Below, one piece after another: positions 1,323 through 29,365 of a stretch of 33,298 bases of DNA. The notes under the pieces were generated by a model that saw only the letters and a program-made list of their open reading frames with translations, did no database searches and was not told the DNA's origin. Each line of letters opens with the position of its first letter. Positions within the stretch are counted from its first letter, which is position 1. The position numbers were made by a program, and so were the translations under genes. This DNA comes from an uncultured Spartobacteria bacterium (lineage in GTDB: Bacteria > Verrucomicrobiota > Verrucomicrobiia > Chthoniobacterales > Chthoniobacteraceae): the NCBI GenBank assembly GCA_903929475.1, contig CAIYUV010000059.1, positions 1 to 33,298 on the forward strand, read 5' to 3'.

Positions 1323-1421
1323 TTGCAGGCTATCAGCATGAGGTTGGATATTACCTAGAGAAAGAAATAGTCCGCCCTGTGACCGGGAAAGCAATGGAGT
1401 GGGCTGGGATAACTTGCTCTA

Positions 1422-1925
1422 AGGCTCACCAATATTGGCCTGCCTCTCCGCAATACTGCCCGGCGTCTCCGCAAGGTTGTTTTAAGGCTCCGCAAGGTTG
1501 TTTTAAGGCTCCGCAAGGTTGTTTTAAAGCTCCGCAAGGTTGTTTTAAAGCTCCGCAAGGTTGTTTTAAAGCTCCGCAAGGTTGTTTTAAGGCTCCGTAA
1601 GATTGTTTTAAGGCTCCGCAATACTGGTTTACGTCATCCCAATACTGGTTTACGTCATCCCAATACTGGTTTGCGTCATTCCAAGGTTGTTTCAGAGCAT
1701 TCCAAGGTTGGTTTGGAGCATTCCAAGGTTGTTTCAGAGCATTCCAAGGTTGGTTTGGAGCATTCCAAGGTTGTTTCAGAGCATTCCAAGGTTGTTTCAG
1801 AGCATTCCAAGGTTGTTTTAGAGCATTCCAAGGTTGCTTTAAGGCATTCCTTCCTAGGGTTGCGGCTTCCCTTTCTAGGGTTACGGCTCTCCACCATTGC
1901 TCTGAGCCTGCCCAACATTGCTCTA
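1422..1925. repeat. 21-bp tandem array 1, 24 units in strict phase
   Basis: Reading from 1422, the DNA divides into 24 consecutive 21-bp blocks with no length change. Three unit families follow one another: about seven CTCCGCAAGGTTGTTTTA-type units (1464-1610), two or three units with CATCCCAATACTGG (around 1611-1678), then eight or so CATTCCAAGGTTGTTTCA-type units, and finally degenerate units containing CTAGGGTT. Some units alternate in pairs (TGTTTCA then TGGTTTG), giving a 42-bp higher-order period. Because 21 is a multiple of three, several frames on both strands stay open and give false heptapeptide proteins. No spacers are present, so it is not a CRISPR. Each unit carries a T-run in the same position, so the runs are phased at two helical turns. 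Confidence 0.9.
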
Positions 1926-1995
1926 TGGATGAAATGCCCTTTTTCTCCCTGGAATCAAATCATCAGACTGGCACTCCCCCCAAGCGCCGGCGCTC

Positions 1996-2215
1996 ATCCC
2001 AACGGGATGAAATCATTCAGCCCAGGGTTGCGAGGTAGGAGCTATTCTGAGTGGCTTCCCGATCCATCCATCAACCCTGAATGGGTTGCATCCGAACGAA
2101 CGGGGGTATGTCACAACTCTTTCAGAGTGGATGGATGTTTGGGGGACGTGGACCCAGCGTAGCCCCGAAAGCATCCGGGGCAACACTGGGCTGAATGATT
2201 CCATCCCCTTGGGAT
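1996..2215. repeat. Nested inverted-repeat element (MITE-like), about 220 bp
   Basis: The arms at 1996-2031 and 2180-2215 are inverted copies of each other, matching at 33 of 36 positions. Inside them a second pair, 2065-2088 and 2114-2137, matches at 20 of 24. The whole segment could fold into a long interrupted hairpin. The left terminus itself contains a perfect short dyad, CATCCC-AAC-GGGATG. A T-run (from about 2233) lies just outside the right end. No transposase or credible reading frame lies within it; the open frames covering it on both strands follow the palindrome rather than any codon pattern. It fits a non-autonomous palindromic repeat. I recall similar sequences from verrucomicrobial intergenic DNA but cannot verify that here. 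Confidence 0.75.
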
Positions 2216-2367
2216 TGCCCACGGCTGCGGGTTTTTTTTGAGGGGAAGTAGGGACAGTCAGATTCTTTGCACTTCGGCGGCATCTGCGAAAAAAAACTCC
2301 GCAGCATGATGAGTCATTGAACTCCTCAGCGACGCCTGCTACTCGTGCGATCCGAAATTTCCACACC

Positions 2368-13087: not shown

Positions 13088-15568
13088 TCAGTTGAATTTT
13101 AGAGGCTCGGGTGTATCCAGTTTGGTTTCAGCGTTTGGCGATGGAGGGACAAGGATGGGTTTGGGTGCGGGAGCGTTGGGGTTCACGGGTTGCGGAGGTT
13201 CGGGAAGTGGCACGGTGTCGGTGCTGATGAGCGGGGCCTGGGCGTTGCCGACTCCGGCGATTTGTTTCATTTTCTCGACAGCGAGTTCGGAACCGTAAGG
13301 GTCAGTTCCGAGGACAGCTTTTTCTTTCAAGACGATTGCGACAACGGTCTGCGGTTCGCGGCGGATGGCGCGTTTGGCGTTGGGGTCTCCACCGGCGACG
13401 ACATTCTCAGCGATGACTCCGCTGTGGACGGGGCACGGGTCTTTGGGGGCTTGTTCCTCGGTGGCGATTTCCTGGTAGGTGGTGCGGACTCCGTTTTCGA
13501 GGCACTTGTCGGTCGCGAGGCCGCCGCTGTTGCGACAGATTTCGACGCGGATGATTCCCTTCGGCATGGTGAATTCATGCGGCTTGTAGTCGGCGAAGCT
13601 CGCTTTCATCAGCTCGGCCCACATGGGGAGTGTGATATCTTTGCTGAATGCGCCGCGGTAGATGCTGCGCTTGGGTCTGCCGCGCTGCTGATCAAAGCCC
13701 ATCCACACGCTGCACGTGATTTCGCTGCTGTAGCCGACGAACCAGAGGTCGGTAAAATTGTAGGCGGTGCCGGTTTTTCCACCGAGCGGGATTTTGCGAA
13801 GGCCAAGCTCGGTGGTGGCGCGCTCGGCGGTGCCGTCGGGTTCGAGGACTTGGGCGAGGCAGTCGTGGACTTCGTAGGCGGTGGTGGGCTTGATGACGGC
13901 GACGATGTCGGGCTTTTCCTCGAAGATGATGTGGCCGAGTTTGTCTTCGATGCGGGAGATGATGAAGGGTTTCGCGGGGCGCGAGCCGCCATTCGGGAAC
14001 ATCGTGTAGGCGAGCGTGAGTTCCATCGGGGAGACTTCGCTGCCACCCAGGTAGGTTTTTGGATAAGCGGCGAGTTGAGAGGTGATGCCGGCGTCTTCGA
14101 CGAGGCTGAGCACGTCCTCGATGCCGGTCATCATGCCGAGGCGTGCGGTGGCGGCGTTCTTGGATTTCACGAGGGCGGTGCGCGCGGAGATGGTGCCCTC
14201 GAAGTGGTTGTCCGCTCGCTCGGGGCCCCATTCGCCGAGGATGCCAGTCATGCCGCCGATCATCACTTTCGTGTTGTCCATCACCGCGTCCTGCACGGCG
14301 GTGCCGGGGAAGAATCCCTTTTCAAAAGCCGCTGCGTAGACGAGCGGCTTGAACGCGGTGCCCGGCAGCACCTGCACTTGCGTGGCGCGGTTCAGTTCGC
14401 TGTGTGCGAAGTCGCGTCCGCCGACGAGCGCGAGGATCGCGCCGCTGTGATTGTCGAGCATCACAGCGGTGCCTTGGAGATACTCCGGTTGCATCCGTTT
14501 TCCATCGGGGCCGGTCGGCTGCTTGTTCGCGGCTTTGTAAATCGCGTCGTATTTTGCGTAGGTCTGGTGGTCGTAGCCTTCGTGGCGCTCGACGGTCGCG
14601 AGTTGCGAGCGGATGGTCTCCTCGGCTTTCTTCTGCAGCGCCGCATCCACGGTCGTATAAATGCGCAGCCCCTCGCCGAGCGCGGTGTCCTTGCCGAATT
14701 TCCGCAGCACCTGCTGGTAGACCATGTCGGCAGCATAGTTTTCCTGGTGAAGTGGACGTTTGTTTTTCAACACCGGCTCCTCTTTGAAAGCTGCGTCGTA
14801 TTCCTCACGGGTGATTCTTTGCTGCATGAGCATGTTGTTGAGCACCACGTTCCGCTCGGTGATGCACGCCTGATAGCTGCCCCACGGCGAAAGCTTGTCC
14901 GGGCTGCGCAAGAGCCCCGCGAGGATCGCCGACTCGCAAATCGTCATGTCCTTCGCGCGCTTGCCGAAGTAGCCCTTCGCCGCCGCCTCCGCGCCGTAGA
15001 AACCGTTCCCGAAATAAACGCGGTTCATATACAGTTCGAGAATCTTGGTTTTGCTGAACTGCTTCTCAATCTCCAGCGCGACGAACATCTCGCGCAATTT
15101 GCGATCCCGCGTCTTGTCGTTCGGCGGAAGCTGCTCCGGGAAAGTATTGCGCGCGAGTTGCTGCGTGAGCGTGCTTGCTCCCTGCTTCGTGTAGCCCGCG
15201 CGCCAGTTTTCATACACGGCGCGCACCACACCTTTGTAGTCCACACCCTTGTGTTCGTAAAAACGCGCGTCCTCACGCGCGATGACGGCGTCGATCAGAT
15301 TTTTTGGCAGATCATCAAAGCGCACCTGATCGCGATTCTGCGTGAACATGCGCCCGATGATTGTCCCCTTTCGATCAAAGATAAGGCTCGCCGACTCCAT
15401 CGCCTCCATCCGCGAGTAATCAAACAGCTTCGCCTTCGCCTCATACTCCGCCTTCACCTTGAAATAAACGACCGCCCCCGCGATGCCGACCAACAGCAAC
15501 GTGAAGAACGGAATGGTGAACCACCAACGGCGATACCAGCGTTTTTTAGGTTTGGGCAAATCCCACAT
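13088..15568 (-). CDS. Class A penicillin-binding protein (PBP1A-like), with Thr at the nucleophile site
   Basis: An 826-residue inner-membrane protein that polymerises and would cross-link peptidoglycan. A basic N-terminus (KPKKRWYRRWW) precedes one membrane segment (about 17-36). The GT51 glycosyltransferase domain shows EDARFYEHKGVD (99-110, catalytic Glu99) and GASTLTQQLARN (130-141). The transpeptidase domain has SKN at 469-471 and KTGT at 598-601, but the S-x-x-K position reads Thr404-Ala-Phe-Lys407 (codon ACC), not Ser. The C-terminal tail is Pro-rich. The start at 15568 (MWDLPKPKK) is chosen because the upstream open extension of 35 residues has no hydrophobic or conserved feature. 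A degenerate copy of the 5' end lies at 16505-16690. Confidence 0.95.
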   Translation of the reverse strand: MWDLPKPKKRWYRRWWFTIPFFTLLLVGIAGAVVYFKVKAEYEAKAKLFDYSRMEAMESASLIFDRKGTIIGRMFTQNRDQVRFDDLPKNLIDAVIAREDARFYEHKGVDYKGVVRAVYENWRAGYTKQGASTLTQQLARNTFPEQLPPNDKTRDRKLREMFVALEIEKQFSKTKILELYMNRVYFGNGFYGAEAAAKGYFGKRAKDMTICESAILAGLLRSPDKLSPWGSYQACITERNVVLNNMLMQQRITREEYDAAFKEEPVLKNKRPLHQENYAADMVYQQVLRKFGKDTALGEGLRIYTTVDAALQKKAEETIRSQLATVERHEGYDHQTYAKYDAIYKAANKQPTGPDGKRMQPEYLQGTAVMLDNHSGAILALVGGRDFAHSELNRATQVQVLPGTAFKPLVYAAAFEKGFFPGTAVQDAVMDNTKVMIGGMTGILGEWGPERADNHFEGTISARTALVKSKNAATARLGMMTGIEDVLSLVEDAGITSQLAAYPKTYLGGSEVSPMELTLAYTMFPNGGSRPAKPFIISRIEDKLGHIIFEEKPDIVAVIKPTTAYEVHDCLAQVLEPDGTAERATTELGLRKIPLGGKTGTAYNFTDLWFVGYSSEITCSVWMGFDQQRGRPKRSIYRGAFSKDITLPMWAELMKASFADYKPHEFTMPKGIIRVEICRNSGGLATDKCLENGVRTTYQEIATEEQAPKDPCPVHSGVIAENVVAGGDPNAKRAIRREPQTVVAIVLKEKAVLGTDPYGSELAVEKMKQIAGVGNAQAPLISTDTVPLPEPPQPVNPNAPAPKPILVPPSPNAETKLDTPEPLKFN

Positions 15569-15865: not shown

Positions 15866-16327
15866 AGCAGGATGAAACCCGTGAGCAAAGGGATTGATAC
15901 CGTGAGGAAAGGTATCCATCCCGGCAGAAAAGGGATGAAGCCCTGCGCAAAAGGTATCAATCCCCTGCGGAAAGGTATCCATCCCATTTGAAAAGGTATC
16001 CATCCCGCGCGGAAAGGTATCCATACCGCCGCAAAAGGTATGGCTACCATTTGGAAAGGGATGCATCCCCCGCGAAAAGGGATGAATCCCCGAGGAAAAG
16101 GGATGCATCCCGGAAGCGGTGGGATAAATCCCAAATGAAAAGGGATGAATCCCGGAGGAAAAGGGATGCATCCCGCCGCAAAAGGTATCCATCCCGCGAG
16201 AAAAGGTATCCATACCGCCGCAAATGGTATCGCTACCTTTTGAAATGGGATGAATCCCTTTTCAAATGGGATAGCCCCCTCCGGCAAAGGGAACGCCCCT
16301 CCAACAGAGAAGAACGCCCCTTTTCCA
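15866..16327. repeat. 21-bp tandem array 2, about 22 hairpin-like units
   Basis: Units of exactly 21 bp run from 15866 (first and last units degenerate; clear units start at 15887). The consensus is AAAGG(G/T)AT-NN-AT(C/A)CC followed by six variable bases. The conserved part is a dyad: some units are perfect palindromes (GGGATGCATCCC at units starting 16055, 16097, 16160), others have GGTAT-CC-ATACC (16013, 16202), so both arms change together in several units. Units at 15992-16054 recur at 16181-16243 with 57 of 63 matches, a nine-unit higher-order step. Open frames on both strands give false heptapeptide proteins. From 15622 to 15865 nothing recognisable was seen. Confidence 0.92.
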
Positions 16328-16504
16328 GAAAACAGCATTGCCCGCTGCCGCCGCAGCGTCCCTTCGGGCTGCCTGCGGCAGGCTGTCTCGCTCCGCTCGG
16401 CTCCCAAACCCGCGTCCGCCCCCAATCCGCAATCCCAAATCTTCCGCCCGCCCTCCCCGCTCCCTTCGTGTCCTTCGCGACTTTGTGGTTCAACGCCGCG
16501 TCCT
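16328..16504. other. Non-coding stretch between array 2 and the PBP fragment
   Basis: No gene is supported. It contains a perfect short dyad, GCCTGC-G-GCAGGC, at 16371-16383. It also holds two low-complexity phrases: AATCCGCAATCCCAAATC near 16424, and a stretch near 16465-16498 reading like 'cttcgtgtccttcgcgac' followed by 'tttgtggttcaacgcc'. I recall phrases of both types recurring in intergenic DNA of planctomycetes and verrucomicrobia; that is memory, not a search. The open frames crossing it are extensions of the array frames. Confidence 0.45.
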
Positions 16505-16690
16505 CGCCTTCGCCGCATACTCCGCCTTCACCTTGAAATAATCGCCCGCCACCGCACTACCGACCAACAGCAGTGTGAAGAGCGGAATGGTGAACCACCA
16601 ACGGCGATACCAGCATTTGTTTGGGCAAATCCCACATGAGGCACCGTAGGATGTCCAAACCCCACACAGACGCAATCCCGCTCAAAGCGA
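16505..16690 (-). pseudogene. Degenerate duplicate of the PBP1A gene 5' end
   Basis: This segment aligns in the same orientation with 15431-15621, the upstream region and first codons of the PBP gene. Over the first 105 bases about ten positions differ. After the shared start codon context (ATGTGGGATTTGCCCAAA on the minus strand) the copy lacks 5 bases relative to the intact gene, which shifts the frame. The peptide phrase CWYRRWWFTIPLFTLLLVG is therefore read in a frame that no longer begins at the original ATG, and it stops soon after AEYAAKARTRR. It stops matching exactly where the intact protein continues KLFDYSRM. It is a dead fragment, not a gene. Confidence 0.85.
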
Positions 16691-28156: not shown

Positions 28157-29365
28157 CTACAGCAGATGCCCCATCTTGGTCCGCTTGGTTTCAAGATACT
28201 TTGCGTTGTGTTTGTTCGGCGTTGATTTGATGGGGACAACCTCAACGATCTTCAGGCCGTAGCCTTCGAGGCCGATGACTTTCTTCGGATTATTTGTGAG
28301 GAAGCGCATTTTTCGCACGCCGAGATCGTGGAGGATTTGTGCGCCGACGCCGTAGTCGCGCAGTTCGGCTGGGAAGCCGAGTTTGATGTTCGCCTCCACG
28401 GTATCGAGCCCCTCTTGCTGGAGTTTGTAGGCGTGGATTTTTGCTGCGAGGCCGATGCCGCGTCCCTCGTGCTGCCTCATGTATAAAAGGACGCCGTGTC
28501 CCGCGCGGTCGATCTGCCGCAGCGCGGAGTGGAGTTGGTTGCCGCAATCGCAGCGCATCGAGCCGAAGATGTCACCCGTCAGGCACTCGCTGTGAACGCG
28601 CACGAGCGTGGCTTTTGCGGACGTGAGTTTTCCACGCACGAGAGCGATGTGATGCGCGCCATCCACGAGTGAGCGGTAGAGATGCAGATCAAATTCTCCG
28701 TATTGCGTGGGCATCTTCACCACTTGCTCGCAGACGACGAGCTTCTCGCTCTTGCGCCGGTGCGCGATGAGCGCGGCGATGCTCACCATGCGGAGCTTGT
28801 GTTTCTTTTTGAAAGCGAGGAGCTGCGGCAGTCGCGCCATCGTGCCGTCGGCGTTCATGATTTCGCAGATGACCGCCGCCGGTTGCATCCCCGCAAGCCG
28901 CGCCAGATCCACGCCGGCCTCGGTGTGTCCGGCGCGTCGCAGCACGCCTCCGTCCTTGGCGCGAAGCGGAAAGACGTGGCCGGGCTGCACGAGGTCGCGC
29001 GGTTGCGATTTTACATCGGCGAGCACGGCGATGGTGCGCGCACGGTCGGCGGCGCTGATGCCCGTGCTGATGCCGCGCGCGGCATCCACCGCGACGGTGA
29101 AATCGGTTTTGTGCGATTCGCGGTTTTCGCGCGCCATGCGTTCGAGGCCGAGTGCAGTGGCCCGTTCCCCTGCGAGCGGCACGCAAATGAGGCCGCGCGC
29201 GTGCGTGGCCATGAAATTCACCGCGGCGGGCGTGATTTTTTCCGCTGCCATGATGAGATCGCCTTCGTTCTCGCGACCTTCGTCGTCGGTCACGATGACC
29301 ATTTTCCCCGCGCGCAAATCGCGGAGGACATCTTCGATGGAATCAAACTGAACAGCTTTCGGCAT
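28157..29365 (-). CDS. ribBA: Bifunctional DHBP synthase / GTP cyclohydrolase II
   Basis: A 402-residue cytoplasmic enzyme for the two entry reactions of riboflavin synthesis. Residues 1-200 are 3,4-dihydroxy-2-butanone 4-phosphate synthase, with the acidic DDEGRENEGD at 27-36 and a GHVFPLRAKDGGVLRRAGHTEA stretch. The rest is GTP cyclohydrolase II: HSECLTGDIFGSMRCDCGNQ holds all three zinc cysteines, RQHEGRGIGL binds substrate, and the end reads LEGYGLKIVEVVPI. Length is normal. ATG 29365 (MPKAVQFDSIED) is chosen; 25 upstream in-frame residues are unrelated. No FMN riboswitch consensus was seen in the 75 bp leader, but a strong short hairpin lies at 29377-29393. The OmpA-like gene is upstream in the same direction. 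Confidence 0.96.
   Translation of the reverse strand: MPKAVQFDSIEDVLRDLRAGKMVIVTDDEGRENEGDLIMAAEKITPAAVNFMATHARGLICVPLAGERATALGLERMARENRESHKTDFTVAVDAARGISTGISAADRARTIAVLADVKSQPRDLVQPGHVFPLRAKDGGVLRRAGHTEAGVDLARLAGMQPAAVICEIMNADGTMARLPQLLAFKKKHKLRMVSIAALIAHRRKSEKLVVCEQVVKMPTQYGEFDLHLYRSLVDGAHHIALVRGKLTSAKATLVRVHSECLTGDIFGSMRCDCGNQLHSALRQIDRAGHGVLLYMRQHEGRGIGLAAKIHAYKLQQEGLDTVEANIKLGFPAELRDYGVGAQILHDLGVRKMRFLTNNPKKVIGLEGYGLKIVEVVPIKSTPNKHNAKYLETKRTKMGHLL

Follow-up and report, generated by a model that had tools for sequence, protein, structure and literature searches.

The window analysed here, a stretch of 33,298 nucleotides, contains two intergenic blocks of tandem 21-bp units, array 1 and array 2 (Table 1). 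These blocks raise the question of why a repeat without spacers should hold its period so strictly, and what such a repeat serves. Array 1 consists of exactly 24 units of 21 bp without any indel, as the sequence-only reading had claimed, and this is far above chance. Its lag-21 identity was 0.82, compared to 0.26 in shuffled sequences (sd 0.02; maximum 0.33, n = 2000), and a wrap-around alignment covered 515 bp with 140 mismatches and 0 indels. TRF resolved successive unit families at 1467–1621, 1619–1684, 1677–1850 and 1849–1888 and reproduced the described 42-bp alternation. Thus, the succession of families was upheld, while their number, given earlier as three, becomes four when the last one is included. 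The period was also said to recur in an unrelated sequence, and this was borne out by array 2, which has a period of 21 and a unit unrelated to that of array 1.

Table 1. Features at the two arrays of the window; orphan status is as judged from leader and trailer identity.
Feature	Position	Strand	Remark
Gene-proximal leader of array 1	1347..1426	.	Sequence identity to the C90 leader and to C123
Orphan array 1	1422..1925	.	24 x 21-bp units, four successive unit families
Non-array repetitive DNA	1926..2239	.	Between array 1 and start of G007 colinearity (2240)
PBP1A gene	13088..15568	-	279 bp downstream of array 2
PBP1A 5' region, first copy of 187-bp segment	15430..15616	-	Flanks array 2
Orphan array 2	15866..16327	.	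22 x 21-bp units, dyad GGKAT-NN-ATMCC
Conserved distal end (trailer, CCAACAGAGAAGAACGCCCCTTTTCCAGAAAAC...) of array 2	16296..16345	+	Identity to X cassettes
PBP1A 5' segment, second diverged copy	16504..16685	-	Opposite side of array 2

The source genome is a 4.5-Mb draft, and its relatives by PurF belong to the Chthoniobacteraceae and Spartobacteria, most of them assembled from metagenomes. The genome and its relatives were searched for further arrays of this period, as had been proposed, and many were found; their unit sequences differed, and the period was nearly always 21. In a 559-kb sample of the genome, 47 of the 116 TRF rows had a period of 21, with further rows of 42 and 63. An autocorrelation scan of the same sample gave about 18 such arrays, and period 21 outnumbered every other; overall, the sample is put at about 20 arrays. 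The units differed from locus to locus, and several arrays were GC-rich. Arrays of 21 bp were also present in the relatives G007, G001, G003 and G016 and in a subdivision-3 Verrucomicrobium (L149). They were not found in samples of several other relatives, and a PurF-anchored survey of GTDB contigs showed few arrays near the PurF locus; the genomes compared are draft assemblies in which repeats leave gaps. The Rfam search gave no match at the arrays. Elsewhere in the window, at 29157–29256 inside a coding region, a marginal Rfam match to the Vibrio AS9 antisense RNA was recorded (51.7 bits, cut-off 50), which is probably due to chance.

Several arrays were adjoined by a conserved block, and following this block led to a protein family, here called X (about 233 aa). 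A second family, Y, is about 205 aa long, and both are multi-copy (range about 205–235 aa). Searches of X and Y against Pfam, NCBIfam, PHROG and PADLOC returned no family above cut-off. Each carries an N-terminal segment and, at its C-terminus, a fibronectin-III-like domain assigned by profile match, which is weak for X. Of 288 genomes sampled across the phylum, 6 have X, and often more than one copy of it. No member of X or Y was found in phage, plasmid and IMG/VR collections, where the plasmid and IMG/VR queries were one protein per family. The dN/dS values of X, about 0.12–0.29, indicate purifying selection, and on this basis the X gene is judged to be kept.

The arrays sit 0–350 bp in front of X or Y genes, with a median of about 125 bp, and array ends and gap lengths vary with the threshold chosen. 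Upstream periodicity was counted for the 43 X/Y genes with enough flank. A lag-21 identity of at least 0.56 was reached in 36 of these 43, compared to 13 of 676 control genes (odds ratio 262, p about 1e-42). Among lags 12–40, the best lag was 21 for 39 of the 43 genes (35/39 X and 4/4 Y); three of the exceptions showed no significant periodicity and one had a best lag of 40. Most X genes were picked by protein similarity with array presence ignored. The X count is cleaner than that of Y, because both the seeds and the small number of Y genes came to light through their arrays.

This distribution bears on the proposals of the sequence-only reading, in which T-runs phased on one face of the helix would give intrinsic curvature, or the array would act as a nucleoid, centromere-like or iteron platform. 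The two-turn phasing fits such a role, and T-runs do occur in array 1. However, a run of four T was present in only 8 of its 24 units, rather than in each as had been stated. An A4/T4 run was found in only 16 of 47 unit consensuses, and several arrays are GC-rich, so that curvature as the reason for the period is not supported. The iteron, centromere or nucleoid site is likewise unsupported, because the arrays are dispersed over many places and tied to two gene families rather than to one locus. Iterons and parS-like or centromere arrays likewise repeat a unit about every two helical turns, but the present arrays differ from them in their many dispersed copies and unrelated units, and no replication or partition gene was seen next to them. 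We regard a curved or platform DNA as highly improbable.

The constraint on spacing claimed earlier was supported by the 39 of 43 genes with lag 21 as best lag, and also by the orthologous arrays. These differed by whole units, 21 bp between L299 and L308/L324 and 84 bp between L282 and L283, with no odd lengths. A neutral or selfish minisatellite could also be considered, in which whole units are gained and lost by slippage, the repeat spreads with its cassettes, and 21 bp is a by-product with no function. Indels of whole units, the fast turnover of unit sequences, orphan arrays missing in close relatives, and the patchy multi-copy distribution of X over the phylum are all in accord with this. 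However, neutral repeats would vary in period, while lag 21 prevails before X/Y genes, and even among the 676 control genes lags 17–20 and 22–25 together reached the threshold in 7 cases, compared to 13 for lag 21 alone. The placement before two gene families and a period kept at 55–65% unit likeness also call for constraint. Intergenic VNTRs and minisatellites share the whole-unit length changes; unlike them, these arrays have a period nearly constant across loci and genera, dyad symmetry and strict gene linkage. A functionless minisatellite is thus considered unlikely.

An intact cassette starts on its 5' side with a conserved distal end, continues with roughly 5–25 phased 21-bp units and a CA-rich stretch, and then reaches the ATG of an X or Y gene. 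In the orthologous cassettes L299, L308 and L324, array and gene are common over about 1.1 kb at 81–93% DNA identity. The homology begins just past the array and stops at the X stop codon, and within the flanking DNA compared the three species have nothing in common. Because the flanks differ, array and gene are judged, on this one orthologue set, to move jointly as a cassette of this length. The ends of a few orthologous cassettes showed no clear terminal repeats, and no recombinase or transposase was found as a constant neighbour of the cassettes. A small gene moving together with a structured DNA element recalls integron gene cassettes, but here the array lies 5' of the gene, and neither an attC site nor an integrase has been demonstrated. 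CRISPR loci also have repeats beside a conserved flank that resembles a leader; in contrast, the 21-bp units abut without spacers and are not conserved between loci.

Both window arrays were assigned to this cassette class by their ends. The leader of array 1 matched the leader of the C90 array with 84% identity over 80 bp, and that array precedes a frameshifted Y gene. It also matched C123 with 83% over 65 bp. The link of array 1 to Y cassettes passes through a single intermediate, C90, by this 80-bp leader. The trailer of array 2 was 100% identical over 50 nt to that of the C195 X cassette and 88–100% identical over 16–49 nt to six further X cassettes. Neither window array is directly followed by an X or Y gene, and the window showed no remnant of X, Y or HTH genes. 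By leader and trailer identity, therefore, both are classed as orphans of array-gene cassettes, in which the gene is lost and the array is probably a relic. We hold both the 21-bp array class and the orphan status of the window arrays with high confidence.

Array DNA, used as a query against 37 relatives, gave matches only within its own genome. Both window arrays were absent from the orthologous sites of the close relative G007, which is explained by their being orphans of moving cassettes. The sequence-only reading had taken the strict phase as a sign of selection on spacing, a view that free variation in unit length or random absence among close relatives would overturn. The outcome was mixed: the unit length showed no drift, in agreement with it, but both arrays are missing from the G007 sites. 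At the junction matching window position 2240, G007 carries a different 21-bp array (L081:16860-17030; L101:7082-7225) upstream of a glutathione peroxidase gene.

Array 2 is flanked on either side by a copy of a PBP1A 5' segment, and the two copies form a direct duplication with 87.7% identity. This arrangement is relevant to the proposal that cassette movement uses the array as its site or substrate, for example in recombination or replication, with the phased palindromes recognised through their structure. Array and gene forming one block with sharp ends in L299/L308/L324, and a conserved distal end common to many copies, are also what such a site would give. However, a typical target-site duplication would be shorter and less diverged than the 187-bp one, no recombinase or transposase accompanies the cassettes constantly, and neither clear terminal repeats nor target duplications are evident. 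We therefore rate a movement site as quite improbable. The PBP1A homologue of G016, a member of the same family, likewise has an upstream 21-bp array (L190:19473-19732). Thus, arrays stand upstream of PBP1A in two genera (52% protein identity), yet they are absent in the closer relative G007. Further repeats lie beside array 2, at 16336–16403 and 16423–16500. They are a REP-like palindrome and a CCTTCGTGTCCTTCGCG motif, and dozens of copies are dispersed over G000 and G007.

The sequence of the units was hardly conserved among cassettes. Units were shared (16–19 of 21 positions) only for X pairs of at least 86% identity, and the units of other X pairs matched at 9–10 of 21 positions on average, which equals the random mean of 9.4. 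Many units are short palindromes that differ per cassette, such as the clearly palindromic unit of array 2, AAAGGKATNNATMCCNNNNNN. The combined dyad test gave p about 1e-19, with p < 0.05 singly in only 17 of 39 arrays; array 1 was not significant on its own (p 0.2). Dyad pairing peaked 3–6 nt from the centre and was lower in the middle four. Complementary double changes numbered 165 compared to 126 expected (z 4.7), a modest excess that is inflated since the counts ignore the kinship of units. On folding, the mean MFE z was -4.1 for the sense strand, with 28 of 39 arrays below -2, and -3.7 for the antisense strand. Sense G.U exceeded A.C in the dyads by a small margin (187 vs 154). Because the antisense strand folds nearly as well and the G.U excess is small, these values do not separate RNA hairpins from dyads in double-stranded DNA, and DNA-level dyads are possible for the first of these reasons.

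The period of 21 is also divisible by three, so the arrays might encode heptapeptide repeats of seven codons. At least one of the six frames was open in 33 of 37 arrays, and 21 of 37 were open in register with the gene. However, column-permuted units gave open frames at nearly the same rate (30.3 of 37), only about 7 of 37 were open through to the ATG, and the variability had no codon-position pattern. No single ORF spanned array 1. A coding array was rejected for want of a signal, and we give this explanation next to no weight.

The dyads, with arms of roughly 4 bp around a weaker 4-bp centre, would also suit an operator array. Each unit would then be a palindrome to which a DNA-binding protein attaches as a dimer, and the dimers would be stacked on one face of the DNA, given that 21 bp is two helical turns, and would control X or Y. 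The candidate regulator is an XRE-type HTH protein (HTH_3/HTH_31), whose gene follows immediately past the array, in the same orientation, in 9 X cassettes and is strongly enriched there. However, HTH proteins of 91–92% identity with the same recognition region stand beside unrelated units (L010/L229, 10/21; L318/L221, 9/21), most cassettes have no HTH gene in the examined flanks, and the unit sequence is random between paralogues. Since near-identical HTHs adjoin unrelated units, the neighbouring HTH does not appear to read the unit, and it is unlikely that one protein reads the sequence of all arrays, because the palindromes differ between cassettes. We therefore consider the operator array rather unlikely. 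The adjacent XRE HTH as array reader was rejected on two informative pairs, in which the units did not track the recognition helix. The HTH-bearing X subclade includes the loci L231:2814-3197, L233:465-778, L221, L229, L282, L283, L295 and L318. HTH and array appear to have been reassorted, as near-identical HTHs occur beside unrelated arrays.

The explanation we favour is that the array acts in a transcript as a leader of mini-hairpins. In several cassettes the array ends only 20–50 bp before the gene, so it would probably be transcribed as the 5' leader of the X or Y gene. A search for a promoter-like site found none in the two cassettes tested. The transcript of the array would most likely form a string of mini-hairpins with stems of about 4 bp and loops of 4 nt, one per 21 nt. 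This string would control the expression or stability of the X or Y message, in which case pairing and spacing matter and sequence does not. The leader-hairpin mechanism by itself is offered tentatively. The array class and orphan status combined with this mechanism, jointly as worded, constitute our main reading, at a probability of roughly 0.55. Somewhat short of even odds, we would describe a mobile multi-copy element whose array is selected for its period of 21 and dyad symmetry rather than sequence and is tied to fibronectin-III-like proteins, that is, a structure-coded and sequence-free cis-element.

The nearest published element is BrickBuilt of Porphyromonas gingivalis, which has a like anatomy. 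It is a minisatellite-MITE of one species, with a 23-nt unit of one sequence family and inverted-repeat ends; its parts can act as promoters, stem-loops are predicted, and whole units are gained or lost between strains (PMC4596501). The present arrays share the dispersed intergenic leader, spacer-less tandem units and tail, the whole-unit gain and loss, and the predicted stem-loops. In contrast to the single 23-nt unit family of BrickBuilt with no linked genes, here the period is 21, the unit differs per cassette, and X or Y genes stand behind the arrays. The open-access literature yielded no account of 21-bp arrays in Verrucomicrobia. Judged from that literature and the libraries searched, the element class appears new, and a prior description may exist. 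If the proposal is true, the arrays would be a bacterial cis-element on mobile genes whose conserved information is spacing and symmetry, not sequence. The X/Y protein family is unnamed in the libraries searched, and the array gives a handle on these unexplained fibronectin-III-like proteins. Intergenic minisatellites in such genomes can be cassette relics, and the array class explains repeats at which this assembly often breaks. Arrays with a period of 69 bp were also observed in the same genus, at L193:694-1155, L226:1058-1386 and L251:2071-2812.
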